DNA from: Bacillus amyloliquefaciens DSM 7 = ATCC 23350
Lineage (GTDB): Bacteria; Bacillota; Bacilli; Bacillales; Bacillaceae
NCBI RefSeq assembly: GCF_000196735.1
Contig: NC_014551.1
Location: 3,653,001 to 3,717,000 of the forward strand
DNA length: 64,000 nt
Reading direction: 5' to 3'
This document shows positions 6,456 to 7,055 of the stretch, piece by piece (positions within the stretch are counted from its first letter, which is position 1; the number at the start of each line of letters is the position of its first letter). The notes beneath the pieces were generated by a model, which was not told the origin of the DNA, ran no database searches, and saw only the letters and a list, made by a program, of their open reading frames with translations. The position numbers were made by a program, and so were the translations under genes.

Positions 6456-7055
6456 GAATCTCTCCTTTTCCGAATAATGACCAGCTCATGGGAATGCTTT
6501 TAAATGTTTTTACAAATTGAAGGCCGTACTTTTGTCTGGCCAGCTCATTTGTCAGCGCGATGTCGGACAAACCGTCCTTCACTCTTTTCGCGGCTGCGCT
6601 TGTTGAGTTCACCAGATCAAACGTGACATCTTTACGGGTAAAATACTTAATCAAATTGATAGGAGACGGGTGGGATACGATAACAGCCTTATCAAGCATG
6701 TCATCGGTATATTCAAAATCAGGCCGGACAGCCAGGCCGTACATTGGGGTGTCGCACCTGAAAATTTGCAGAAGCTGCAGATCCGGTCTCATGTAGAAAT
6801 GCTTAATACCGTCATACGCGTGAGGCACAATTGTGTATTCCAACGGACTTTGAAGCGTTTTTTCAATGCACGATTCAAATGTATCATGCAGAGATAACTT
6901 GCTGTTCACCCCTTGGAGGAGGGTAAAATTGGTGATGAAGTTTTTTGCTGCTTACTCACTGCTAGTCCCTTCAGGACCGAGCGTGTTGATCTAATCAGTT
7001 TAGATATTGAATAAGCCTTGCTTTTCGTCTGAATGCTATTATCCAATATAATCAT
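6442..7055 (-). pseudogene. bacA: bacA, prephenate decarboxylase, with -1 frameshift and in-frame stop
   Basis: BacA decarboxylates prephenate and starts bacilysin synthesis; the family protein is about 204 residues. Here the first 21 residues (MIILDNSIQTKSKAYSISKL then I) read normally from the ATG at 7055-7053. A net one-base loss near 6988-6995 then shifts the frame. In the original frame the motif NTLGPEGTSSE can still be read at 6987-6955, but the next codon, 6954-6952, is TAA where I remember Tyr. The rest, 6951-6442, reads as normal BacA to its C-terminus GEIHDEN. The shifted frame ends at TGA 6908-6906, overlapping a GTG in the BacA frame (GTGA), so a 155-residue fragment lacking the LGPEGT motif could be made. 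Two lesions make a single sequencing error unlikely. Wild-type comparison is from memory. Confidence 0.85.

Follow-up and report, generated by a model that had tools for sequence, protein, structure and literature searches.

In the deposited genome of Bacillus amyloliquefaciens DSM 7 = ATCC 23350 (DSM7T; a single contig of 3,980,199 bp), the bacilysin (bac) operon is complete except for its entry gene, bacA. We analysed a 64,000-nucleotide stretch of this genome (contig NC_014551.1, positions 3,653,001 to 3,717,000), called the window here; all coordinates below are window coordinates. The deposited sequence carries three lesions in bacA and its ribosome-binding region, no second bacA was found, and the rest of the operon is intact and was formerly under constraint. 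We conclude that bacA of DSM7T is probably a very young pseudogene, and that bacilysin synthesis has probably been lost in the strain as sequenced. BacA is the prephenate decarboxylase at the entry to the pathway; lacking it, the cell would make no anticapsin and hence no bacilysin, despite intact bacB-bacG and bacE.

Lesions at the 5′ end of bacA

bacA is read from the minus strand, as are all of its parts described here. From the normal ATG (7055-7053), translation gives 21 normal residues followed by 28 out-of-frame residues and a TGA at 6908-6906 (frameshifted 5′ remnant, 6906-7055), so that the native start would yield a dead peptide of 49 residues. An earlier note, made from the letters of this stretch, had placed a net -1 shift near 6988-6995 after 21 normal residues. 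Alignment, codon alignment and translation bear this out: compared with six aligned relatives (B. velezensis, B. nakamurai and four others), DSM7T lacks one base between 6992 and 6991. The same note had described a TAA in the original frame right after the LGPEGTSSE motif, and this too is present, at codon 35 (6952-6954), where the relatives have a sense codon. The motif segment, INTLGPEGTSSE (6955-6990), is shut in a frame of 12 codons, closed by TAG 6993-6991 upstream and by the TAA downstream, with no ATG, GTG or TTG start between the two stops. The only long open frame left is the 3′ remnant of 155 amino acids (aa), residues 50-204, which begins at GTG 6909-6907 and occupies 6442-6909. What is missing from it is conserved: T25-P28 and G30-E34 are invariant in all 17 aligned BacA homologues, and 11 of the 44 invariant columns in that alignment fall in the lost 49 residues.

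The earlier note had counted two lesions; both lie where it placed them, and it overlooked a third. In the bacA ribosome-binding region (7056-7066), one of two tandem TTGG copies is gone, and the surviving copy (7064-7061) ends 5 bases ahead of the ATG. The native B. subtilis bacA ribosome-binding site, as published, spans both copies (PMC10084748; this and the other papers below are cited from excerpts). The tandem is kept in 12 of 12 B. subtilis/velezensis-type relatives, and the remaining 13, which we label B. pumilus-type from sequence, carry GATTGGATGG at this site and do not have that loss. Computed anti-Shine-Dalgarno pairing is weakened from -11.3 to -6.1 kcal/mol, a rough figure that uses an assumed anti-Shine-Dalgarno tail. 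Replication slippage of the tandem repeat is a plausible origin of the 4-bp change. All three lesions, this one included, lie within 113 bp. Immediately upstream, the sigma-A type bac promoter (7084-7112, minus strand) is intact, with TTGACA at 7112-7107, a 17-bp spacer and TAATAT at 7089-7084; both hexamers are identical in B. velezensis. The promoter described for B. subtilis bacA is likewise of the sigma-A type, with TTGACA and a spacer of 17 bp (PMC10084748).

The disruption is confined to DSM7T among the genomes searched. The region is matched in 27 of the 44 genomes of the genus, comprising the DSM7T genome itself, 25 relatives with bacA, and one genome (G025) that matches the upstream gene only. 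Alignment to other strains, as the earlier note had proposed, confirmed the lesions: the bacA frame is uninterrupted in 25 of 25 relatives, at 208-223 codons counted from the previous stop. At the level of the family, a profile built from 17 BacA sequences found matches at E <= 0.001 in 47 of 80 genomes. We took a score above 300 bits as a BacA-level match; among the 26 such matches in the 80 genomes, only that of DSM7T has internal stops. The nearest relatives used, B. velezensis NRRL B-41580 (G040; bac loci L003/L036) and B. nakamurai NRRL B-41091 (G015; L004/L037), have intact bac operons that correspond to that of DSM7T codon for codon from bacB to bacG. They differ from it in that bacA is uninterrupted and both TTGG copies are kept. 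An intact second bacA, which would have spoken for continued bacilysin synthesis, was not found in the DSM7T genome, where both protein matches come from this locus, one from each half of it. Thus the gene shows two hallmarks of a unitary pseudogene, namely disabling lesions where orthologues at the same locus are intact and no intact copy elsewhere in the genome. A search of the plasmid collection gave no match, and no relative was found in IMG/VR. The 62-aa frameshifted open reading frame (ORF) had no homologue in the protein collection, a result that speaks neither for nor against other strains sharing the lesions.

Age of the probable loss and the sequence-error question

Branch substitutions were assigned by three-way parsimony, comparing DSM7 with B. 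velezensis and using B. nakamurai as the outgroup. Besides the stop and the gap codon, the DSM7 branch of bacA carries 9 synonymous changes and no missense change. Under neutrality the probability of no missense change is 4.6e-6, which indicates that constraint on the gene lasted through nearly the entire branch. A raised ratio of missense to synonymous changes after loss, a further mark of unitary pseudogenes, is therefore absent from bacA, and a very recent loss would not be expected to show it. The 9:0 count is compatible with either a very recent loss or a sequence error.

Several points weigh against the loss of bacilysin. In a rough neutral model with an assumed indel fraction of 5-20%, the probability of two further disabling events before any missense change is 0.009-0.064, and when clustering in 113 bp is added, the rough joint probability for independent neutral hits falls to 0.0007-0.005. 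Together with the lack of missense changes, these figures suggest that the lesions are very recent and perhaps not independent, or that they are partly errors in the deposited sequence. The earlier note's description of the lesions as independent is accordingly doubtful, since three within 113 bp of a gene with no missense change fit independent serial decay poorly. A single clustered event or a local sequence error may lie behind them. Moreover, intact BacA occurs close by. Among 28 proteins that matched the 155-aa remnant in the protein collection, P0001 is a BacA of 204 aa, 99% identical to the remnant, from the B. amyloliquefaciens group (on 13 contigs, of which the longest measures 4,016,031 bp), so that near-identical intact BacA does exist in strains of this group. 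Strain EG025, which groups with DSM7, is reported to have 100% of the bacilysin cluster, bacA included (PMC13176060). The broken bacA is, on this evidence, strain-level at most. Finally, Table 2 of PMC4138018 lists bacABCDEGH as present in DSM7T.

The main rival to bacilysin loss is a database error: a local patch of poor quality in the deposited sequence, in which at least one of the three changes arose in sequencing or finishing, the living strain having an intact bacA. The clustering in 113 bp, the absence of missense among the nine bacA substitutions and the near-identical intact BacA of group strains would all suit such a patch. However, the deleted base lies outside any homopolymer run, the TAA arose by substitution, and the 4-bp change is plausible as tandem-repeat slippage. 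Nor is there a general excess of frameshifts across the window. When the window was compared with B. velezensis, 56 of the 77 B. velezensis ORFs 100 aa or longer had a match in it. Among the matches above 80% identity, to which the listing was confined, six had less than 92% coverage, and bacA alone was split across two ORFs of the window. The five others are differences of start, end or breakpoint; in three of them (33013-33252, 37191-37625 and 55524-55976) the differing end contains or adjoins a 1-bp indel. In the reverse comparison, 57 of 61 window ORFs were matched in B. velezensis, seven with low coverage, and two of the seven (27268-28002 and 52330-52866) each map to two B. velezensis ORFs; single frameshift differences thus occur in both directions. 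A general assembly error finds no support in this comparison, and a local patch is the form that an error could still take. We regard such an error as unlikely, though by no means negligible.

In the deposited sequence bacA is broken, no second copy was found, and the missing part holds a motif invariant in the 17 aligned homologues. The earlier note's claim that bacilysin is probably lost therefore stands, on condition that the assembly is correct. We infer that the lesions are real and that the strain would make no bacilysin. Published accounts of DSM7 differ. The presence call in PMC4138018 stands against Table 3 of PMC8809340, where bacilysin is scored absent; PMC9147277 counts DSM7 among genomes with a bacilysin cluster. 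A cluster that is there with its entry gene broken would explain both tables, and for the same reason cluster-calling can misjudge producers. The finding is of practical value for annotation: DSM7T is the type strain and commonly serves as the reference for "non-plant-associated" B. amyloliquefaciens. In a B. amyloliquefaciens collection, bacilysin belongs to the accessory and not the core genome (PMC5541019). Plasmids carrying bacAB are reported to have conferred bacilysin synthesis on B. amyloliquefaciens GSB272 (PMC9147277, after Steinborn 2005), a result that would fit a strain lacking bacA or bacB. Among the literature matches listed, the excerpts contain no report of these bacA lesions, and an earlier report elsewhere is possible.

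The loss of bacA is ordinary cluster erosion. Frameshifts are known in other Bacillus biosynthetic clusters, among them clade-conserved ones in ppsE and fenD and that in sfp of B. subtilis laboratory strains (excerpt of PMC8546965). There, as here, a single gene of an antibiotic pathway carries small lesions that are predicted to abolish the product. The DSM7T case differs from these examples in affecting bacA, with three lesions in 113 bp, and was seen in one genome. If real, it would add one more antibiotic lost in DSM7T, beside the fengycin genes reported missing (PMC8809340).

Possible residual BacA and the remainder of the operon

The 155-aa remnant scores 22.2 bits against Pfam PDT, below the cut-off of 25.2. 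It starts at residue 50 and does not contain the N-terminal TLGPxGTSSE motif; it does not qualify as a member of the BacA/PDT family. Compared with the prephenate dehydratase fold (PF00800; PDB 3mwb, 2qmw and 2qmx), the remnant is without the first strand, the motif loop and the first helix; a sequence search found no BacA in the PDB. We infer that this fragment has no activity. At 6909-6906 the stop codon of the frameshifted ORF (TGA) shares bases with the GTG at which the remnant begins, an arrangement that would permit re-initiation and coupling to bacB. P0003, another match from the protein collection, is a 155-aa protein with the same first residue as the DSM7 remnant and 97% identity to it; it represents 18 members, comes from a 5,841-bp contig and has B. 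velezensis-like residues. Its entry names no source, as is also the case for proteins encoded by the window, so its members may include the DSM7 form itself.

Taken with the absence of missense changes in the remnant frame, the overlap and the 155-aa form in P0003 could point to residual BacA, made by termination and re-initiation at the TGA/GTG or by recoding and giving low-level bacilysin. The remnant lacks the motif and the other invariant columns that fall in the first 49 residues, however, and its PDT score is below the cut-off. Shine-Dalgarno pairing upstream of GTG 6909 is weak (-3.8 kcal/mol, computed with the same assumed tail), and to make BacA at full length the ribosome would have to shift frame as well as read through a stop. 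This makes residual activity very unlikely. Recoding or an alternative start within the motif frame was also rejected as the principal explanation, as that frame is bounded by stops on both sides and has no start.

Downstream of bacA, the earlier note had every other bac gene reading through, and the three-way codon alignments with B. velezensis and B. nakamurai agree, with no gaps or new stops in bacB, C, D, E, F or G. On the minus strand lie bacB (cupin, 5742-6455; also in the ORF list and domain search), bacC (dihydroanticapsin dehydrogenase, 4984-5745; NCBIfam anticapsin_BacC above cut-off), bacD (alanine-anticapsin ligase, 3549-4967; NCBIfam BacD equivalog above cut-off), bacE (major facilitator superfamily (MFS) exporter, 2371-3552; Pfam MFS_1) and bacF (aminotransferase, 1159-2358; domain and family searches). 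bacG (SDR reductase, 365-1144; ORF list and family search) lies on the plus strand. bacE, bacF and bacG are named by position. The listed ORFs for bacD (3549-5003) and bacG (233-1144) begin further upstream than the genes. All six of these genes are therefore present and open, and what the operon lacks is an uninterrupted bacA, the sole copy found having the frameshift, the stop and the ribosome-binding change.

For bacA-bacG together, the DSM7 branch has 123 synonymous and 18 missense changes and the B. velezensis branch 103 and 16 (Fisher p = 1.0). Relaxed selection on the operon, which we looked for, is thus not seen. BacE has 28 synonymous changes and 1 missense change on the DSM7 branch. 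Given how recent the loss looks, most of this constraint is older than the loss and is no indication of selected resistance without production. Of the resistance-without-production state that the earlier note had proposed, the genetic part holds, with an intact exporter BacE and no uninterrupted bacA in the sequence, but it carries no sign of post-loss selection on BacE. That bacA is instead an old pseudogene, the operon being kept for another role such as exporter-based immunity, would agree with an intact and constrained bacB-bacG, but is scarcely credible given the like ratio on the B. velezensis branch and the absence of relaxation in bacA itself, both of which point to a recent loss and an inherited constraint.

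Related proteins and neighbouring genes

One further protein match, P0010, is a 203-aa BacA with a scrambled GTSSE motif (2 members, 1,531-bp contig). P0003 and P0010 are possible further losses of bacA, and serve as leads to recurrent loss, not as proof of it. With the DSM7 lesions, these two hint that in the B. amyloliquefaciens group bacA may be lost repeatedly at its 5′ end, each time giving immune non-producers ("cheaters") in which bacB-bacG and the exporter persist. We consider this improbable.

Eight of the 44 genus genomes, all without a BacA-level match, have a distant BacA-like PDT protein, with open frames of 186-201 aa and scores of 51-64 bits. In one genome (G006; locus L074:7553-12815 on contig C45, also L071), a BacA-like protein with a TLGPKGTNCE motif lies in a run of genes for an EamA transporter, an ATP-grasp L-amino-acid-ligase-like protein, the BacA-like protein, a DUF6421 protein and an aminotransferase. 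This run looks like another bacilysin-like dipeptide cluster.

Upstream of bacA, the ORF list and three-way alignment place an MFS gene at 7213-8511 (minus strand), which from its position we take to be of the ywfA type. Elsewhere in the window lies a segment of about 3 kb (41575-44636) to which nothing corresponds at the syntenic position of B. velezensis NRRL B-41580. This segment holds four plus-strand ORFs of at least 90 aa, which by eye resemble a WYL-type regulator, an SDR protein, an NTF2-like protein and a small Dabb-like protein.
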